Source: Desulfobacterales bacterium (GTDB lineage: Bacteria > Desulfobacterota > Desulfobacteria > Desulfobacterales > JAHEIW01). Taken from it: DNA of 7,825 nt. The notes under the pieces are model-generated. The model was not told the DNA's origin. It made no database searches and saw only the letters and a list, made by a program, of their open reading frames with translations. This document shows, piece after piece, positions 231-7,825 of the stretch. The first letter of the stretch is position 1. Each line of letters opens with the position of its first letter. The stretch covers positions 1 through 7,825 of the forward strand of contig JAQYWI010000229.1 in NCBI GenBank assembly GCA_030145015.1, read 5' to 3'. Position numbers and translations under genes: made by a program.

Positions 231-977
231 TCAGACTTTTACGCCGCCGAGATACACCTTGCGCACGTCTTCGTTGGCACGGATTTCATCGGGACTGCCC
301 TGGGCAAGAAGCTGGCCATAGTGCAATACCGTAATTTTGTCGGATACCTCCATGATGACCTTCATCTTGTGCTCAACCAGAATAATGGTCAGGTTCCGGG
401 CAATTTTTTTGATAAGTTCGATCGTCTGGCGGGTCTCTGTCGGTGCCAGGCCGGCCGTGGGCTCATCAAGAAGTAATAGTTTGGGCCGGGTCGCCAGGGC
501 AATGCCGATCTCCAGGCGCTTTTGATCACCGTGGGACAAATTACCCGCTATTTCATCCTTGAATTCTGCCAGGCCAATATCTTCCAGAATCTGCGATGTC
601 TGGTCAAGAACATCACTCAAAGAGAGGGCCCGCGACCAGAAATTGAATGTGGTTTGTCGGGACTGCGCCGCCACCCGGACGTTTTCAAAGACGGTTAGCA
701 TGGGAAAAATATTGGTGATTTGATAAGCAACGGCAATGCCCAAATGGGATATGGCCGTCTGGGACAGGGCGGTAATATCTTTGCCGCCAAACATGATCTG
801 GCCGGTAGTGGGCTTGTGTTCTCCCGAAATCAATCTAAAAAAGGTACTCTTGCCCGCCCCATTAGGCCCGATGATGGATTGCAGATCGCCTTCTTGCAAT
901 GTAAAATTCACATCGTCCACAGCAAATAAGCCGCCGAAGCTCTTGGTCAGGCCGACCGTTTCAAGGATTGCTGACAT
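231..977 (-). CDS. livG: LivG-type ABC transporter ATP-binding protein
   Basis: This 248-residue ATPase subunit of the HAAT importer energises uptake through the LivH/LivM pore. All nucleotide-binding motifs are intact: Walker A GPNGAGKST (37-45), Q-loop Gln86 in YQITNIFPMLTVFENV, signature LSHGDQKR (147-154), Walker B LLLLDEP with Asp171 and Glu172, the D-loop region AGLAPTE, and switch His203 in VEHKM. Length is normal for LivG (about 250). The C-terminal stretch after the H-loop (VLHYGQLLAQGSPDEI, then VYLGG) is the usual LivG ending. The ATG at 975-977 has AGGA at 983-986, 5 nt upstream, and lies 14 nt downstream of the livM stop, the same spacing as livG-livF. The signature has His where many ABC proteins have Gly/Ser (LSHGDQ), which is common in this subfamily and not a defect. 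It should be an active ATPase; what it helps import is not visible. Confidence 0.96.
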   Translation of the reverse strand: MSAILETVGLTKSFGGLFAVDDVNFTLQEGDLQSIIGPNGAGKSTFFRLISGEHKPTTGQIMFGGKDITALSQTAISHLGIAVAYQITNIFPMLTVFENVRVAAQSRQTTFNFWSRALSLSDVLDQTSQILEDIGLAEFKDEIAGNLSHGDQKRLEIGIALATRPKLLLLDEPTAGLAPTETRQTIELIKKIARNLTIILVEHKMKVIMEVSDKITVLHYGQLLAQGSPDEIRANEDVRKVYLGGVKV

Positions 978-991
978 GGGTTTCCTGCCTC

Positions 992-2026
992 TTAGGTGTT
1001 TCCCTTGCTTGTTAGTTCTTTAATCGTGCCCCATATACCGCTCGGAAAAAACAGGACGCAGAGAACAAAAACCGTTCCGAGGAATATCATCCAGTTTGCC
1101 GTCAACGCGCTTAAGACGTCTTCCAGGAAAAGGAACACCCCGGCCCCGATAAAAGGCCCGATAAAGGTGCCCATACCACCCAAAAGGGTGATCATGACAA
1201 CCTGGCCTGATGTGATCCAGTAAAGCGTTTCAATGCCGACAAAGTGTAAATACAGGGCATAAAGGCCTCCGGCCAGGCCCGAGATGGACCCGGATATGAT
1301 GAATGCCATCCAACGCACATTGGAGGTTTCGTATCCACAACTCAGGGCGCGATGCTCATTTTCCCGCACGGCCTGCAATACATGCCCGAAGGGCGATTGC
1401 AAAATTCTGTTGAGCGCCAGGAGCGACAACACAACGAAAAAAAGCACAAAAAAGTAATAACGCAGCGGCGTAGAGATATCTATGGAAAGCCCGGGAAGAG
1501 ACAGGGGCACAAGTGGAATGTTCCTCAAGCCGTTATCCCCCCCTGTCAGATCCACCCACTGAAAACCGATGAAATAAACAAGCTGGGCAAAAGCCAGGGT
1601 CAGCATCGCAAAATAAATGCCGCGGCGTTTAATGCACAAATATCCCAGAATAAAGGCGGTGACCGCCCCCATAAGTAGGCCGCAAAAGAGTCCAAACCAC
1701 ACATTTTCCCAGAGACGGATAAGCACAATTCCGGTTGCATAGGCGCCCACCCCGAAATAGGCGGCGTGACCGAAGGAGAGCATCCCGGTGTACCCAAGGC
1801 AGACGTTGTACCCCAGGGCGAAAAGCCCCCAGATGATAATCTCGGTAGCCAATGCCCGATAGGGAACGGTAAAGGGAAAAATAAAGAGGAACGCCACTGT
1901 GAAAAAAAGAGGGTAGCGTTGGATGACGCCTACCATTTTCTGCCATCGGCTCTGATCTAATTCCAATTGCATCATTGCGCCGGTTACATTTTCTTCATCG
2001 ACCACTTGCTTCCCCTTTGATGCCAT
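992..2026 (-). CDS. livM: LivM-type ABC transporter permease
   Basis: This 344-residue inner-membrane permease pairs with LivH to form the translocation channel. Hydrophobic segments lie roughly at residues 41-58, 61-80, 84-104, 109-131, 138-156, 190-208, 238-262, 272-300 and 312-328. Family hallmarks are visible: GYTGMLSFGHAAYFGVGAY (78-96), TGGDNGL (161-167), the ATPase-coupling loop GHVLQAVRENEHRAL (214-228) followed by GYET, GGMGTFIGPFIGA (283-295) and the C-terminal FFPSGIWG (326-333). About 40 polar residues precede the first membrane segment, a cytoplasmic N-terminal tail seen in many LivM proteins. The start at 2024-2026 lies only 2 nt after the livH stop and has no clear Shine-Dalgarno, so translation is probably coupled to livH. 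Met18 or Met19 are possible alternative starts, but neither has a better ribosome site. Confidence 0.95.
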   Translation of the reverse strand: MASKGKQVVDEENVTGAMMQLELDQSRWQKMVGVIQRYPLFFTVAFLFIFPFTVPYRALATEIIIWGLFALGYNVCLGYTGMLSFGHAAYFGVGAYATGIVLIRLWENVWFGLFCGLLMGAVTAFILGYLCIKRRGIYFAMLTLAFAQLVYFIGFQWVDLTGGDNGLRNIPLVPLSLPGLSIDISTPLRYYFFVLFFVVLSLLALNRILQSPFGHVLQAVRENEHRALSCGYETSNVRWMAFIISGSISGLAGGLYALYLHFVGIETLYWITSGQVVMITLLGGMGTFIGPFIGAGVFLFLEDVLSALTANWMIFLGTVFVLCVLFFPSGIWGTIKELTSKGNT

Positions 2027-2028
2027 AA

Positions 2029-2907
2029 TTATTCAAGAAGGCCTGCTTTGCCGAAAAGGCCGCTGGGCCGAACCAACAGGACGACTGCCATCACGAGAAA
2101 GATAACGATATCCGCCATCGGGGGATAAAAAAGAGTCGTGATGGCAATCGCCTCTCCCATGATGATGCCCGAAAGGATGGCGCCTTTGAGACTCCCCATT
2201 CCCCCGACGACAACCACAACAAAGCATTCCACCAACATGGCGATCCCCATCTCCGGGAATACGCTTCGAATCGGGGATGCCAGTATACCTGCAATACCCG
2301 CCAGTGCTGAACCGATGCCAAAAACAAGCCACCATATTCGATTCATATCAATACCCAGGGCACGCACCATAAGTGAGTCTCGGGTTCCTGCCCGAATGAC
2401 CAGCCCCAGGTTTGTCTTTTCCAGAAAAAACCATAAAACCGCACATATGACAAGGGTCACGCCAATCACGAATAGACGGTAGGAGGGGAAATAAAAGACG
2501 CCAAACATCTCGATCGGCGCGGATAGAATATCCGGAGCACTGAAGGGTTGGTCGGAAGTTCCCCAGAAGATACGGACAATCTCTATCATGATGAATTGAA
2601 GGCCGAAGGTGAGCAATAACGGGTAGTTAATATCGCGCCCATAAAGGGGACGAATAAGTCCTCTTTCAACGACCAGACCGTAGCCGCCCATAACCAGCGG
2701 GACGATGACCAGTGCAAGCCAAAAGTTCCCGGTGATGGCGACGACCGATACGCCGGCATAAGCCCCCCACATGTACATGGCCCCATGGGCAAAATTGACC
2801 ACCGTGAGCAGTCCAAAGATGATGGACAGACCCAAGGCGAGCATGACATAGAGCATGCCCAGCGATAACCCCGTAAAAAGCTGCATCACGATGACTGTCC
2901 AGTCCAT
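2029..2907 (-). CDS. livH: LivH-type ABC transporter permease
   Basis: This 292-residue inner-membrane permease is the partner of LivM in the HAAT importer. It is very hydrophobic, with about eight membrane segments. Family motifs are present: GLSIIFGLLTVVNFAHGA (26-43) continuing into MYMWGAY, ERGLIRPLYGRD (81-92), the cytoplasmic coupling loop IRAGTRDSLMVRALGID (171-187), GGMGSLKGAILSG (235-247) and LLVRPSGLFGK (277-287). Length matches LivH (about 290-300). The ATG at 2905-2907 is preceded by a purine run AAGGGG at 2920-2925, about 12 nt upstream, which is farther than ideal. A strong hairpin (2931-2959) ends 5 nt before that run, so access to this site could be modulated. The gene follows the binding-protein gene on the same strand after 65 nt and almost touches livM. 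The call is secure; the transported compound cannot be deduced from the permease. Confidence 0.95.
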   Translation of the reverse strand: MDWTVIVMQLFTGLSLGMLYVMLALGLSIIFGLLTVVNFAHGAMYMWGAYAGVSVVAITGNFWLALVIVPLVMGGYGLVVERGLIRPLYGRDINYPLLLTFGLQFIMIEIVRIFWGTSDQPFSAPDILSAPIEMFGVFYFPSYRLFVIGVTLVICAVLWFFLEKTNLGLVIRAGTRDSLMVRALGIDMNRIWWLVFGIGSALAGIAGILASPIRSVFPEMGIAMLVECFVVVVVGGMGSLKGAILSGIIMGEAIAITTLFYPPMADIVIFLVMAVVLLVRPSGLFGKAGLLE

Positions 2908-2930
2908 CTGCTTTTATAACCCCTTTCGCA

Positions 2931-2959
2931 TGATCCCGCCCCGAGACGGGGCGGGATCA
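2931..2959 (-). promoter_or_regulatory. Strong RNA hairpin between the binding-protein gene and livH
   Basis: The arms TGATCCCGCCCC (2931-2942) and GGGGCGGGATCA (2948-2959) are perfect inverted complements. A further G-C pair (2943/2947) makes a 13-bp stem with a 3-nt loop. The hairpin begins 13 nt after the binding-protein stop codon. On the transcribed strand it is followed by TGCGAAAGGGG and not a U-run, so it does not look like a standard intrinsic terminator. In similar transporter operons, such hairpins shield the upstream message from 3' exonucleases and let the binding protein be made in excess over the membrane subunits. That role is inferred here; the fold itself is plain in the sequence. 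Confidence 0.75.
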
Positions 2960-2972
2960 GAATATATGTTGG

Positions 2973-4262
2973 TTATTTCTTGAGCCCGTGTCGAACCGGT
3001 TTGTTGGGGTTCATCCCCACCTCGACACAAGTCCGCAGGAGTCGCTCATCTGCTCCTGATACCGTCGCAACATGCTCGAAAACATCATATTTGGCCGTGT
3101 CTTTTTTGGAACGAACGATGAAGACATCCTGCTGCGACTGATGGTCGCAGGGCCGCCACCATTGTTTGCCCTTGTAATTGTCGTAGCTCCGGTTCTCAAT
3201 GGTCTCGGCCATGCCAACAGGATCCAGCTTGCCGGCCCGGATAACGGCCATTAGGATTTCCTTAATGCCCCCATAGGCGTATCCCGCGTAATCAATCGGA
3301 GGACGACCATGCATCTTCTGGAAGGCACCCACAAATTGTTTGGCCGTCGGATTGTCCAGACCCCAGTCGAAGGAAGTGCCGCCTGCGACCCCATCATAGG
3401 CCGCCGCACCGGCCCCGATACGAGCGGACATAAGAATGATGGGGCATATGAGTTGCATTTTTTTCTTCAGGCCAAAGGCGGTAGCCTGCTTGATGGAATT
3501 GAGCTGATCTTTTCCGAAGTTGTCAAGCAACAGCACATCCGGCTTTGCGGCCAGGATGCGCGGCATATAGGAAGAGTAGTCACTCGTACCTAAGGGATGC
3601 TTGGTTTCCCCCACATCAACAACGCCGAACTCTCTGCCTTTACGTTTGAAACCGTCTGTCATCTGCCAGCCATAGGCATAATCAGAGGTCAGGTAGTACC
3701 AGCGCTTGCCGAAATTCTTCGCGACCCATTCTCCCACAGCCTGTGTGGTCATGTGCGGATTCATCGCTTCATGATAGGTATAGACGCTATTGTCCTGTCG
3801 CTGGGTAATCTCGTTGGCCTGGCTTACGGAAACATAGGGCACACCGTGTTCCTTGGCCAGCTGGTTTACGGCAAGCTGGTTGGAAGCCGAAAGGCATCCT
3901 GACATAAGCTCAACTTTTTCAGCTTCCAGGAGTTCCTTGGCCCGTCTGGCCGCTTCAGCCGCCTTGAGCTTGGTGTCGCGAACAACAAGTTCCACCTTAC
4001 GCCCCAGAACGCCGCCATTTGCATTGATTTCAGCGATCGCCAGTTCGGCACCTGCTTGTTGATCTTTAGCCTCGGTCCCATAGGGCCCGGTCAAGGGGAT
4101 TGGAAAGCCAAATTTGAGGGGGCCTGTGGCAGCTTGAGCACGGCGAACAAAATGAAAACCTCCGGATGCCATTGCACCGGCAGCCATCCCAGTCGTCTTG
4201 AGGAAGGTGCGCCGATTAATCCCTTTGCCATCTTTTACCTTTTTCTTTTTGATCTCGGACAT
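2973..4262 (-). CDS. Tat-exported periplasmic substrate-binding protein of the HAAT transporter
   Basis: This 429-residue receptor (type I periplasmic-binding fold, Peripla_BP_6/LivK-like) captures substrate in the periplasm and delivers it to LivH/LivM. A Lys-rich N-terminus leads into a twin-arginine motif NRRTFLKTTG (16-25). A hydrophobic Ala/Gly stretch follows, with a likely cleavage site after AQA (42-44). The mature part opens with LKFGFPIPLTGPYG (49-62) and continues with AGAELAIAEINANGGVLGRKVEL (from 70) and VVRDTK, the classic start of this fold. Later segments include LTSDYAYGWQ (191-200), YAGYAYGGIKEILMAVIRAG (325-344) and a WWRPCDHQSQQD (368-379) segment found in a subset of these receptors. 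Length fits the Tat-type subset, which is longer than E. coli LivK. The ATG at 4260-4262 has an excellent AGGAGG 7 nt upstream. It is the first gene of the transporter operon. The ligand is unknown; amino acids, amides, urea and aromatic acids are all served by this family. Confidence 0.95.
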   Translation of the reverse strand: MSEIKKKKVKDGKGINRRTFLKTTGMAAGAMASGGFHFVRRAQAATGPLKFGFPIPLTGPYGTEAKDQQAGAELAIAEINANGGVLGRKVELVVRDTKLKAAEAARRAKELLEAEKVELMSGCLSASNQLAVNQLAKEHGVPYVSVSQANEITQRQDNSVYTYHEAMNPHMTTQAVGEWVAKNFGKRWYYLTSDYAYGWQMTDGFKRKGREFGVVDVGETKHPLGTSDYSSYMPRILAAKPDVLLLDNFGKDQLNSIKQATAFGLKKKMQLICPIILMSARIGAGAAAYDGVAGGTSFDWGLDNPTAKQFVGAFQKMHGRPPIDYAGYAYGGIKEILMAVIRAGKLDPVGMAETIENRSYDNYKGKQWWRPCDHQSQQDVFIVRSKKDTAKYDVFEHVATVSGADERLLRTCVEVGMNPNKPVRHGLKK

Positions 4263-4643: not shown

Positions 4644-5303
4644 TCAAACAACCGTTTCCAAGTGCGATTCGATAACCCAGAGCCCGTTTCGCAAGTGTTT
4701 TCGTAATACTTTTTTTGCTTTAGCTCGATCACCGTTTCTGAATGCATCTAAAATCAAGGTGTGTTCTCGGTTGGCCCTGGTCACGGCTTTTTCAGATTCT
4801 GAGAAAATGCGCAGATAAGGCCCCGTGCTGTTCCACAACCCTTGCAGTATTTTGCACAGACGCGGTGAGCCGGACATTTCAAATAAGGACAGATGAAAGA
4901 CTCGGTTGAGATTAAACCATTTGGAGCCGTTGATACTTTTTTTTGACATCTTGCGGTTGAGCTCCTCCAGATGCTTAAGGGCCTGTTTGTCGCAACGGTC
5001 AAAGCATTTCAATAATGCCATGACTTCCAACGGGATCCTCAGATCGTAAATATCATGAAGTTCAGTTCGGGACAATCGACTTGCCACGATGCTTTTGTTG
5101 GAATTAAAGCTGACCATGCTCTCGACTTCAAGTTGTCGAAGTGCCTCCCGAACCGGCATGGTGCTGACATTTAGTTTTTCAGCCAGCTTACTAATTTTGA
5201 TTACCGCTCCAGGCTCGATTTCACGTTCCAGAATAGCTTGCCGCAGGCTTTGATAGGCCATTTTTTGAAGGGATTGTTTCTTGATGGGTGTGTCCAAAAT
5301 CAT
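4644..5303 (-). CDS. GntR-family transcriptional regulator, FCD (FadR-like) subgroup
   Basis: This 219-residue DNA-binding regulator probably responds to a carboxylic acid or amino-acid-derived ligand. The N-terminal winged helix-turn-helix runs about 10-75: KMAYQSLRQAILEREIEPG (14-32), then the recognition helix STMPVREALRQLEVE (47-61). The C-terminal FCD ligand domain (about 80-215) shows YDLRIPLEVMAL (86-97), FHLSLFEMSGSPRL (136-149) and REHTLILDAFRNGD (179-192) followed by RKHL. The likely metal/ligand residues by FCD spacing are Asn133, His137, His181 and His203. The first is usually Asp, so the pocket is slightly altered. Length is normal. The start at 5301-5303 has only a weak purine-rich site; no better start was seen. 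It sits between the PLP-enzyme gene and the transporter operon, all on one strand, with its own likely promoter at 5411-5438. It is a candidate regulator of itself and its neighbours; the actual target is inferred. Confidence 0.9.
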   Translation of the reverse strand: MILDTPIKKQSLQKMAYQSLRQAILEREIEPGAVIKISKLAEKLNVSTMPVREALRQLEVESMVSFNSNKSIVASRLSRTELHDIYDLRIPLEVMALLKCFDRCDKQALKHLEELNRKMSKKSINGSKWFNLNRVFHLSLFEMSGSPRLCKILQGLWNSTGPYLRIFSESEKAVTRANREHTLILDAFRNGDRAKAKKVLRKHLRNGLWVIESHLETVV

Positions 5304-5449: not shown

Positions 5450-7825
5450 TCAGCTGTCAGAAGCACGTAAACTTTCGTGATGCTTTAGCAATAAAGAAAG
5501 TTTTAGCAACAGGGCCCTGTCATCTGCAAGCGCCGCTTCTACACCATATTTTTCCATAAAAAAAACAAGGTCCATACCCAGGGCGATTCTGAGTACAGCA
5601 AAATTACCCAATTCGACCGGCTGTCCGATCAAAAAAGAACGTTGCAAAACGGCTTTTTCTGCATGACTGAGCCTAATGTCAGCGGGAAAGCGGCAACGCA
5701 TATCTTCGTAGAGCCAATAATATAAACTTTTCAGGACTTTTAAGGGCAATACGTCACCCTTTGATAATAATTTTAGGGAAATAATTGTATTTCTTTCTCC
5801 GACGGCCCCGGCCTGAGTTTCTCCGCCGTTTAAAACTTCCAACTGCGGATATTGCGCAACCAATTTCAAAATCGCGTCTACCCAGTTTTGAATCAATTGA
5901 TTGCGCGTCTGATCTTCAATATGGCGATAGTTTTCCCAGTTGGTCAACGCGCTGGTCCAGCGCATCATCAATCCCCAGTTCATCCAGCCGGGCAGATAGG
6001 GCCGGATCATCTCCATATCCCCGGAAACATCATACGGATTAATAAATTTTCCAAGCGCGGGAAGAAAATTTATAAAACTATTGGCAGTCAGCGATCCAGT
6101 TAGCCGGTGAGGCACAATGACGGCTCCGCTAAACGGAGGGCCTTCTTCAAACTTCGAACCCGTAATCATGACCATATAACCATGTTGTAAATAGTTACGC
6201 GTACGACTAATATCGGTTCGGCTCTGACAGCTGTCTATCGTAACCAGCAGTCGTCCTGAATATTTTGCTCTCAAGCGTTCGACTTCATCAATTACATCCA
6301 TTCGGCGACCCAGTTTGGATGAATCCACAATATGCAACAGCGCCAGGGTTCCTGGTTTTGACAGGCTATTGTGCACATGCTTTATCCATACATCCTGGTT
6401 TGGCGTCTGCTGACCGGTTAAATGATGGTGTTGTGATATGGTTATCACTTTGACATTATCACCAATGCCGATCAATCTGTCCGCGGAATCAACTTTCTCC
6501 CCACAAGGTGTTAAGGATGAGTAATATAGACCATTTGCCGCGGTGGCTGAATGAGCTCCTATCTCGCCGGCACCGGTGACAATACTCACTATTTTATCAC
6601 CGTCTCCTGTATAGGCCTTCGAAATCAGCAACGGGATGTATTCTGCATCTGTGCCGCAAGATACGGTTATGATGCTGTCTTTTGAATCAATTGTCAGTAT
6701 GCGCCGCATCCGATCATGAACCTGTTGCATACATTCCGGAAATGAAACCTTAGCGGCGCGGATATCCCTGTATAGGTCATTAACATATTTATAGTTGTCT
6801 GCGGATATAAAAGAGCCGCTGCAGCTCGACCGGGATACTAAATTCTTCGAAGCAGGTTTGGGCGCGATTTGAATATAGTTCAATCCCTGCTCGTCTAGTT
6901 GCAGACGATCATCTCCGCCGGAAATCAATATTTTTGAAAGGCTGGATGATAAAATTTTGCCTAATGATTCTATTATATCCAGTATTTTCTTTATGGATTC
7001 GCGTGTCAGTTTAGGGCCGGTTATAAATCTGATAAACGCAGGGTAGTTTTTTATGCTGGAATAATTGACCAGGATTTGCCCATCTTTCTGCATGCATTCA
7101 TATAACCGGACAGTCAATTTTTCTAACTCGGCTTTATCCTTCTGCGAGCACTGGTCGATATTGCCTAACTTGCGCAGATGCCCGGGTACGTACCAAAAAC
7201 ACAGGTTCCAGAAATCAGGCTGATCGTCATAGAGCCAAAAACAAGGCCGCGCCTGTATCATATCAACAGCTTCGGCCGTCTTTGCAAACCGTCTCTCCAC
7301 CTCTCGGGCAAAATAATCCTTTCCCCTCATTTTCCACATCAACCAAAATTTAAAAGCATCACCGCGACGCCCACACTGCGGAGTCTTTTCTCCTAAATGA
7401 TAGGTTTGTATTTCCTGACTGCCATGAAACAAATAAGACCCATCAAATACAAAACTGTTTTTTAAATGCGAACCATTTTTGACCAGCAAAGCCGCACATA
7501 GAAGCGGAGACCGCATGGCCTTGTGCAAATCCCAGGCTATGGAATCCGCTCGCTGGAGCCCTTCTATCATTTCTCTTCTTTTATTTGACATGAGAACAGC
7601 GCCGCCCCAGGCCGCGTCTGCATGCAGCCAAATTTTGCGGGAAGATAAAATGTTTTTTATTTCAGTTTGCGGATCAAAAGCGCCTAAAACCGTCGTGCCC
7701 ATTGTCATGTTGACAAAAAAGGGCCTTTCTCCTTGATCTTGTGCGGCTTCAATTTTTTGTCTCAAATCGTCGGGGACCATTCGTCCATGCCGGTCACATT
7801 TAATCTTGCGGACTGATTTTGCGCC
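5450..7825 (-). CDS. Two-module PLP enzyme: GAD/CSAD-like decarboxylase fused to an aminotransferase-like domain (5' end beyond window)
   Basis: The frame is open to the right edge, giving 791 visible residues. The first, GAKSVRKIKCDRHGRM, already belong to the decarboxylase, so the ATG at 7778-7780 is internal. Residues about 1-290 match group II PLP decarboxylases (glutamate, cysteine-sulfinate): FFVNMTMGTTVLGAFDP (36-52), HADAAWGG (68-75) with the PLP-binding Asp70, catalytic Lys102 in AWDLHKAM, the loop YLFHGSQEIQTYHLGEK followed by QCGRRGD (150-156), FWLMWKMRG, and NLCFWYVPGHLR (207-218). A second fold-type-I PLP module fills about 300-791: SCGTDAE (389-395), IDSCQSR (530-536) with likely PLP-binding Asp531, presumed Schiff-base Lys558 in TGSKFEEGPPFSGA, and a C-terminal LIGQPVELGNFAVLRIALG (732-750). 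No ATG with a ribosome site lies at the junction. About 230-250 N-terminal residues should lie outside the window. The first module should decarboxylate an acidic amino acid; the second module's function is not recognised. Confidence 0.88.
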   Translation of the reverse strand, partial: GAKSVRKIKCDRHGRMVPDDLRQKIEAAQDQGERPFFVNMTMGTTVLGAFDPQTEIKNILSSRKIWLHADAAWGGAVLMSNKRREMIEGLQRADSIAWDLHKAMRSPLLCAALLVKNGSHLKNSFVFDGSYLFHGSQEIQTYHLGEKTPQCGRRGDAFKFWLMWKMRGKDYFAREVERRFAKTAEAVDMIQARPCFWLYDDQPDFWNLCFWYVPGHLRKLGNIDQCSQKDKAELEKLTVRLYECMQKDGQILVNYSSIKNYPAFIRFITGPKLTRESIKKILDIIESLGKILSSSLSKILISGGDDRLQLDEQGLNYIQIAPKPASKNLVSRSSCSGSFISADNYKYVNDLYRDIRAAKVSFPECMQQVHDRMRRILTIDSKDSIITVSCGTDAEYIPLLISKAYTGDGDKIVSIVTGAGEIGAHSATAANGLYYSSLTPCGEKVDSADRLIGIGDNVKVITISQHHHLTGQQTPNQDVWIKHVHNSLSKPGTLALLHIVDSSKLGRRMDVIDEVERLRAKYSGRLLVTIDSCQSRTDISRTRNYLQHGYMVMITGSKFEEGPPFSGAVIVPHRLTGSLTANSFINFLPALGKFINPYDVSGDMEMIRPYLPGWMNWGLMMRWTSALTNWENYRHIEDQTRNQLIQNWVDAILKLVAQYPQLEVLNGGETQAGAVGERNTIISLKLLSKGDVLPLKVLKSLYYWLYEDMRCRFPADIRLSHAEKAVLQRSFLIGQPVELGNFAVLRIALGMDLVFFMEKYGVEAALADDRALLLKLSLLLKHHESLRASDS

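Follow-up and report, generated by a model that had tools for sequence, protein, structure and literature searches.

What does a bacterium gain from two pyridoxal 5'-phosphate (PLP)-dependent enzymes in one polypeptide? The question is raised by a stretch of 7,825 nucleotides from a Desulfobacterales bacterium (contig JAQYWI010000229.1 of assembly GCA_030145015.1; hereafter the window), in which a single minus-strand frame, open from the window edge to a stop at 5450, encodes 791 visible residues. An original prediction, made from the sequence alone, had divided this frame into a GAD/CSAD-type decarboxylase (domain 1, D1) and an aminotransferase-like module (domain 2, D2), which together could, for example, convert an acidic amino acid to an amine and then to an aldehyde. 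Our analysis establishes the fusion and points to the opposite order of reactions: the gene would yield one protein with two PLP enzymes acting in sequence. D2 would combine a serine derivative (or cysteine) with sulfite into a sulfonated alpha-amino acid, most likely L-cysteate, its leaving group being replaced by sulfite through a PLP-aminoacrylate, and D1 would remove CO2 from L-cysteate to give taurine. We infer the sulfite, the leaving group, cysteate as product and taurine as end product alike, as well as the substrate, and we give this pairing of L-cysteate formation from sulfite with decarboxylation to taurine an even chance of being correct.

One polypeptide with two PLP sites

Residue numbers count from the window edge unless P0001, the full-length counterpart of the protein, is stated. 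The frame contains the following parts:

5450..7825, minus strand: 3' part of the fusion gene, encoding the visible 791 aa of a 981-aa protein whose start lies beyond the window (open reading frame, ORF, and match to P0001)
6944..7825, minus strand: D1, the C-terminal part (from P0001 residue 191) of a GAD/CSAD-like PLP decarboxylase (PF00282, 169.9 bits; P0001 structure matches)
7616..7618, minus strand: D1 Asp70 (P0001 D260), pyridine-nitrogen aspartate, invariant in 14/14 fusions
7520..7522, minus strand: D1 Lys102 (P0001 K292), Schiff-base lysine, invariant in 14/14 fusions
5453..6943, minus strand: D2, an uncharacterised class-V-like PLP module of 497 aa
6233..6235, minus strand: D2 Asp531 (DSCQ motif), aligned by hhalign with DGAQ of cysteine desulfurases, nearly invariant in a 36-sequence alignment
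6224-6226, minus strand: D2 Gln534 (DSCQ motif), nearly invariant in the same alignment
6152..6154, minus strand: D2 Lys558 (TGSKF), presumed Schiff-base lysine, invariant in that alignment and aligned with the SGHK lysine
5588..5590, minus strand: D2 Arg746 (LRIALG), presumed carboxylate-binding arginine, likewise invariant and aligned with the desulfurase RASF arginine

A protein search returned P0001, a predicted protein of 981 aa that is identical at 789 of the 791 positions and whose residue 191 corresponds to visible residue 1; the length of more than 1000 residues expected in the original prediction was an overestimate. Overall, 14 full-length fusions of 955–1002 aa were found, P0001 included (P0001-P0005, P0007-P0012, P0014, P0015 and P0018). 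The other 13 share 41–87% identity with P0001, and all are colinear through the junction with no break in the alignment. Taxon hints among the protein hits place fusion P0010 in a Desulfobacterales metagenome-assembled genome (MAG) and P0013, a second-half protein, in a Deltaproteobacteria MAG. Because these 14 fusions exist, a sequencing error hiding a stop near the junction is ruled out, and the uninterrupted frame stands as one polypeptide. The finer points of the original prediction held as well: D70, K102, D531 and K558 lie where it put them, and no in-frame ATG occurs between visible residues 245 and 366. In-frame TTGs are present at 300 and 315, the latter abutted by an AGGGA that stands too close for a normal ribosome site. 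Its concern that homologues might be two adjacent genes does not apply in the window's own clade, where three apparently standalone D2 proteins (P0020, P0125 and P0126) compare with 14 fusions, but across the wider D2 family the two parts are mostly encoded by separate genes lying near each other. P0020 and P0125, nested inside the fusion clade, may have split secondarily or reflect incomplete gene calls. P0126 and the decarboxylase P0035 share a source and a longest contig of 3419 bases, and their genes may be neighbours. The fusion of a decarboxylase with a PLP-family D2 is therefore real, well conserved and established.

The identity of D1 as a GAD/CSAD-type decarboxylase is supported by a PF00282 match at visible residues 5–212 (169.9 bits, cut-off 27) and by a PDB comparison in which P0001 residues 25–480 match GAD2 and CSAD structures with ~338 bits. 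GAD proper carries S-N-F at three positions of substrate selectivity. The choice of these positions reportedly goes back to Agnello et al. in 2013, with F-S-Y as the CSAD motif. The window-family D1 has neither motif: Y-N-H was found in all 14 full fusions (the truncated P0006 lay outside this scoring), in a further fusion, P0021, and in the standalone relatives P0022-P0036, 30 hits in all. The remaining aligned hits carried FSY (31), YSY (37) or SNF (3), along with HNG (48) and QNG (5) from D2 loci; these are counts of hits and not of proteins, some proteins appearing twice, nine hits being gapped at one or more positions and eight hits showing other patterns. Animal CSAD is mostly FSY and GADL1-type proteins mostly YSY, while two of the three SNF hits are GAD1-type.

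For D2, an AlphaFold model (predicted local distance difference test score, pLDDT, 93) has the class-V/cysteine-desulfurase fold of fold type I, and the Asp and Gln, the presumed Schiff-base Lys and the presumed carboxylate-binding Arg align with their counterparts in cysteine desulfurases. The model thus supports a second PLP site on a different fold-type-I module and provides the PLP fold that the second half might have lacked. The label "aminotransferase-like" is apt for the fold only; none of seven D2 proteins scanned reaches an aminotransferase model cut-off. We also considered D2 as a mere tail of the decarboxylase, which was rejected since it has a complete predicted fold of its own and occurs as a standalone gene. 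D2 falls below every Pfam and NCBIfam cut-off (13.8 bits against PF00266, class V aminotransferase, with a cut-off of 21.5), neither P0001 nor D2 matches cysteate synthase model TIGR03844 (cut-off 324.9 bits), and a PDB sequence search with the D2 profile returned nothing significant. In class V enzymes, the C-terminal Arg binds the substrate carboxylate, and Arg746 favours an alpha-amino acid over an amine as the substrate of D2, a transaminase being still compatible. No conserved Cys was seen in the window family at the site of the desulfurase C-terminal loop, a stretch in which the alignment is poor. Residue 96 of D2 (window 6656-6658) is Cys in the window, P0002 and P0003, and Ser in at least 90% of aligned D2 proteins (SGTD motif).

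A proposed link to cysteate synthase and the partners of D2

Which reaction would D2 contribute? In P0021 (923 aa), a window-type D1 (57.5% identical to that of P0001, with Y-N-H) is fused to a cysteate synthase (TIGR03844, 489 bits). This enzyme is described as making L-cysteate from O-phosphoserine and sulfite (PMC12713407). Because P0021 carries an amino-acid-forming cysteate synthase in the place of D2, the two domains of the window fusion would form an amino acid and then decarboxylate it, rather than pass an amine on to an aldehyde. P0021 is the only cysteate synthase-decarboxylase fusion in its homologue list, which contains 19 other PF00291 proteins; each of the 10 scanned among these exceeded the TIGR03844 cut-off. 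Other cysteate synthases are fused to PAPS (3'-phosphoadenosine 5'-phosphosulfate) reductase (P0228), to a CysN/CysC-like protein (P0218) and to a PGDH-like dehydrogenase domain (P0231), the latter two partners falling below their own cut-offs; these partners probably supply sulfite and phosphoserine. Patents reportedly mention algal proteins in which cysteate synthase is fused to a decarboxylase.

D2, too, is followed immediately by a PAPS reductase gene in three of the four loci from Phytoactinopolyspora, and no cysteate synthase over the cut-off was found in 20 D2-bearing genomes, which is weak evidence given that the enzyme is rare. Based on P0021, the PAPS reductase partners and this absence, sequence comparison suggests that D2 is likely a functional stand-in for cysteate synthase and the fusion likely a taurine synthase. 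In one Phytoactinopolyspora operon (L011 6076-10231), genes for a sphingosine-1-phosphate (S1P)-lyase-like enzyme, D2 and PAPS reductase have overlapping ends, a combination that is unexplained, and P. alkaliphila has two further PF01507 loci.

Next, we evaluated the company that D2 keeps across genomes. A genome-contig scan with the full ORF as query found no relative; a later scan with the D2 alignment did, and 324 of 325 pattern matches in GTDB species genomes encoded D2. The locus counts given here refer to the best 80 of these 324 loci and lean on Bradyrhizobium, which contributes 39 of the 80; the phyla represented are Pseudomonadota, Actinomycetota, Verrucomicrobiota, Rhodothermota, Bacillota, Planctomycetota and Bacteroidota. 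Neighbours were profiled for group II (DCII) and group IV (DCIV) decarboxylases, a protein termed partner X and PAPS reductase, each on the same strand and with its centre at most 5 kb from D2:

D2-X-DCII: 40 loci
D2-DCIV: 7 loci
D2 alone: 7 loci
D2-X: 5 loci
DCII-D2: 4 loci
X, then DCII fused to D2: 4 loci
DCII-D2-PAPS reductase: 3 loci
D2 fused to X, then DCII: 3 loci
DCII-X-D2: 2 loci
D2 fused to X; DCII fused to D2 (L043); D2-D2-X-DCII; X-DCII-D2; X-D2: one locus each

A decarboxylase-superfamily match stands beside D2 or is fused to it in 66 of the 80 loci, or in 59 when six S1P-lyase-like partners and a remnant in L043 are left out. No DCII, DCIV or X match was found in 21 comparison loci (82 kb), which are pieces of 3–4 kb drawn, not at random, from D2-bearing genomes, one of them (L108) being a piece of the P. 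alkaliphila D2 locus. Gene order thus argues strongly for a functional coupling of D2 with decarboxylase-superfamily enzymes. The six S1P-lyase-like "DCII" partners, from Phytoactinopolyspora and Verrucomicrobia, were recognised by PDB comparison (two), by motif in the alignment (three) or by profile only (one), and "decarboxylase partner" means superfamily only in their loci. The Bradyrhizobium partner tested (L014) is AADC-like, the partners in L016 and L019 being ~46% identical to it, and the DCIV partner resembles DAPDC but scores under the lysA cut-off.

Fusions with D2 were also encountered outside the window family. Four from halophiles (L016, L036, L054 and L058, i.e., Vreelandella utahensis twice, Halospina and Halovibrio) consist of a decarboxylase followed by D2 in ~1000 aa, and in L016 the two parts are 25.6% and 28.5% identical to D1 and D2 of P0001. 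In a tree of 46 D2 sequences, window-type and halophile fusions formed separate groups, each with a Shimodaira-Hasegawa-like approximate likelihood ratio (SH-aLRT) support of 100. An approximately unbiased (AU) test on a quick tree, made after the first tree was known and with the tested group defined by architecture, rejected their union into one group (p = 1.5e-41), and because of this rejection we take the halophile fusions, on these trees, to be of independent origin. A third architecture is seen in P0184 and P0211, where D2 precedes a group IV decarboxylase. In Vreelandella massiliensis (L043 6185-9509), the D2 ORF begins with only the end of a decarboxylase domain and the locus has no other decarboxylase match; this fusion may be truncated.

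More tentatively, and with a somewhat less than even chance of being right, D2 could be an unrecognised fold-type-I, sulfite-using amino-acid synthase, i.e., a second, unrelated cysteate synthase. The family occurs in at least seven bacterial phyla, with related sequences in archaeal and algal data. Joined repeatedly, by fusion or in operons, to four different kinds of PLP decarboxylase-type enzyme, it would give bacteria a widely distributed way of making taurine, or a sulfonated amine related to it, without starting from cysteine dioxygenase.

Several further observations concern these loci. Partner X (L080 9490-10737, P0213 and relatives) is a protein of ~415 aa with no Pfam or NCBIfam family over cut-off and no significant hit in a PDB search. 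By eye it resembles an ATP-grasp ligase, the only support being that one member matches PF14243 below threshold (E 0.11). It shares an ORF with D2 in L018, L020, L038 and L005, and in halophiles it is part of a protein with TPR and acylphosphatase domains. Relatives of D2 also appear in eukaryotic data sets (EukProt, MMETSP), namely P0129 (labelled Galph1, probably Galdieria phlegrea), P0132, P0136, P0177, P0185 and P0187. In 37 of the 39 Bradyrhizobium loci, one or more genes belong to four clusters that are represented in L014 by flagellar genes; in L014 (966-16500) these encode hook-type and FlgK proteins, a weak flagellin-N protein (below cut-off) and two flagellins. In C. difficile, type B flagellin is described as bearing a taurine-containing peptidylamido-glycan (PMC5207245), with an ATP-grasp gene in the glycan locus (PMC5207246). 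One lead is that Bradyrhizobium flagellin may carry a sulfonated modification. Lastly, a search for Y-N-H decarboxylases matched 15 of 294 planctomycete genomes (E <= 1e-70), with the motifs FSY (11), YSY (3) and FSA (1) and no YNH, and the short loci retrieved lacked any match to D2, X or cysteate synthase; in the Desulfoscipio phylum (199 genomes) it returned no match, an empty result that is uninformative.

Alternative readings and the neighbouring genes

How well does taurine synthesis withstand other readings? Some of these draw on the rest of the window:

4644..5303, minus strand: GntR/FCD regulator, the next gene downstream (PF00392 and PF07729)
231..4262, minus strand: branched-chain-amino-acid-type ATP-binding cassette (ABC) transporter, with a binding protein (2973-4262), permeases (2029-2907 and 992-2026) and an ATPase (231-977)

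A sigma-70-like promoter match lies at 5438-5411 (one found, 0.5 expected in shuffles), and the ABC binding protein has a Tat-type signal (TIGR01409 over cut-off).

A number of results weigh against a taurine synthase. P0021 is a single sequence on a short 3.5-kb contig. The PAPS reductase linkage belongs to one genus, amounts to one event and is missing from the fourth species (L028), and the gene upstream in these loci is S1P-lyase-like, not GAD-like. Sub-threshold cysteate-synthase-like matches occur in 10 of the 20 D2 genomes, and matches are found in 12 of 14 control genomes. The D2 profile aligned to desulfurases with a probability of only 43% (hhalign, local mode), and the AADC-like partner type of alphaproteobacteria has an HNG or QNG motif, so that its substrate may differ. 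Within the window, no sulfite-supplying gene was found, the GntR regulator and the amino-acid-type importer say nothing for sulfonate synthesis, and an uptake system downstream of the fusion also fits catabolism or uptake.

Among the alternatives, a different product of D2 survives best, as an unlikely but serious contender: D2 would make another beta-substituted alanine or a cysteine sulfinate-like acid, and D1 an amine other than taurine. The variety of D2 partners (GAD-like, AADC-like, DAPDC-like and S1P-lyase-like) could indeed mean different substrates, and Y-N-H is the motif of neither CSAD nor GAD, but P0021 pairs the same type of D1 with a curated cysteate synthase, and the PAPS reductase neighbours, in their one genus, point the same way. 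The acidic amino acid-amine-aldehyde scheme of the original prediction, with D2 as a transaminase, is improbable: it is at odds with the amino-acid-forming enzyme in the same slot of the sister fusion P0021 and with the failure of all seven scanned D2 proteins to reach an aminotransferase cut-off, it leaves the PAPS reductase linkage without a role, and Arg746 speaks for an alpha-amino acid.

Could the fusion instead be catabolic, with the downstream ABC system taking up a sulfo-amino acid and D2 acting on it as a desulfinase or sulfo-lyase that frees sulfite? Desulfobacterales respire sulfite, and the relative P0010 comes from a MAG of this order; the desulfurase/C-S lyase-like fold of D2 and the importer and GntR regulator downstream would also suit this role. 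Yet there would be little point in fusing two enzymes that compete for the same substrate, the PAPS reductase neighbours in one genus are assimilatory, and a promoter-like site separates the fusion gene from the importer, leaving catabolism about as improbable a reading. A catalytically dead D2 that only aids D1 folding or oligomerisation can be set aside as very improbable: no activity is known for any D2 member encountered, but in the 36-sequence alignment neither Lys nor Arg varies and Asp and Gln hardly do, and standalone D2 genes are common.

Proposed taurine synthesis and known systems

The best-known taurine route needs oxygen (cysteine dioxygenase). If the taurine synthase reading is true, a fusion that works with sulfite would be independent of oxygen in anaerobes like Desulfobacterales, and bacteria would, if this is confirmed, have a new way of making taurine from a serine-like precursor and sulfite. 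A function would then also be assigned to a PLP family that has no Pfam model and occurs in Bradyrhizobium, Rhodopseudomonas, halophiles and other groups. The fusion makes a clean test case: a single protein with two active sites, whose one predicted product can easily be measured. Among the matches listed in open-licence PMC, no paper dealt with D2 or the fusion in its title or the start of its abstract. Taurine synthesis in bacteria and algae is called sporadic in one paper (PMC10356861), and in another (PMC12585060) cysteic acid decarboxylation is screened for in E. coli cysA ssuD cysC, whose growth on cysteic acid depends on a decarboxylase.

Compared with known systems, D1 shares the catalytic Asp and Lys of CSAD, GADL1 and GAD (PF00282) and ~41% identity with mammalian CSAD (P0043), but differs in having Y-N-H where these have FSY, YSY or SNF and in its fusion to a second enzyme. 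D2 has the fold of NifS/SufS cysteine desulfurases and hercynylcysteine sulfoxide lyase, with the same Asp, Gln, Lys and Arg positions, whereas it scores below all their cut-offs, has insertions and conserved motifs of its own (TGSKFFxGPPFSGA, IGQPV) and, compared with NifS/SufS, shows no catalytic Cys where the alignment is unsure. The halophile fusions match the window fusion in decarboxylase-D2 order and approximate length, but their decarboxylase is of the HNG type, unlike D1 of the window family. Finally, cysteate synthase (TIGR03844), known from the coenzyme M pathway of Methanosarcinales, is a fold type II enzyme, in contrast to the modelled fold type I of D2, which has no TIGR03844 match; even so, it fills the C-terminal slot of D2 behind the same type of decarboxylase in P0021, and the two have PAPS reductase and a decarboxylase as common partners.
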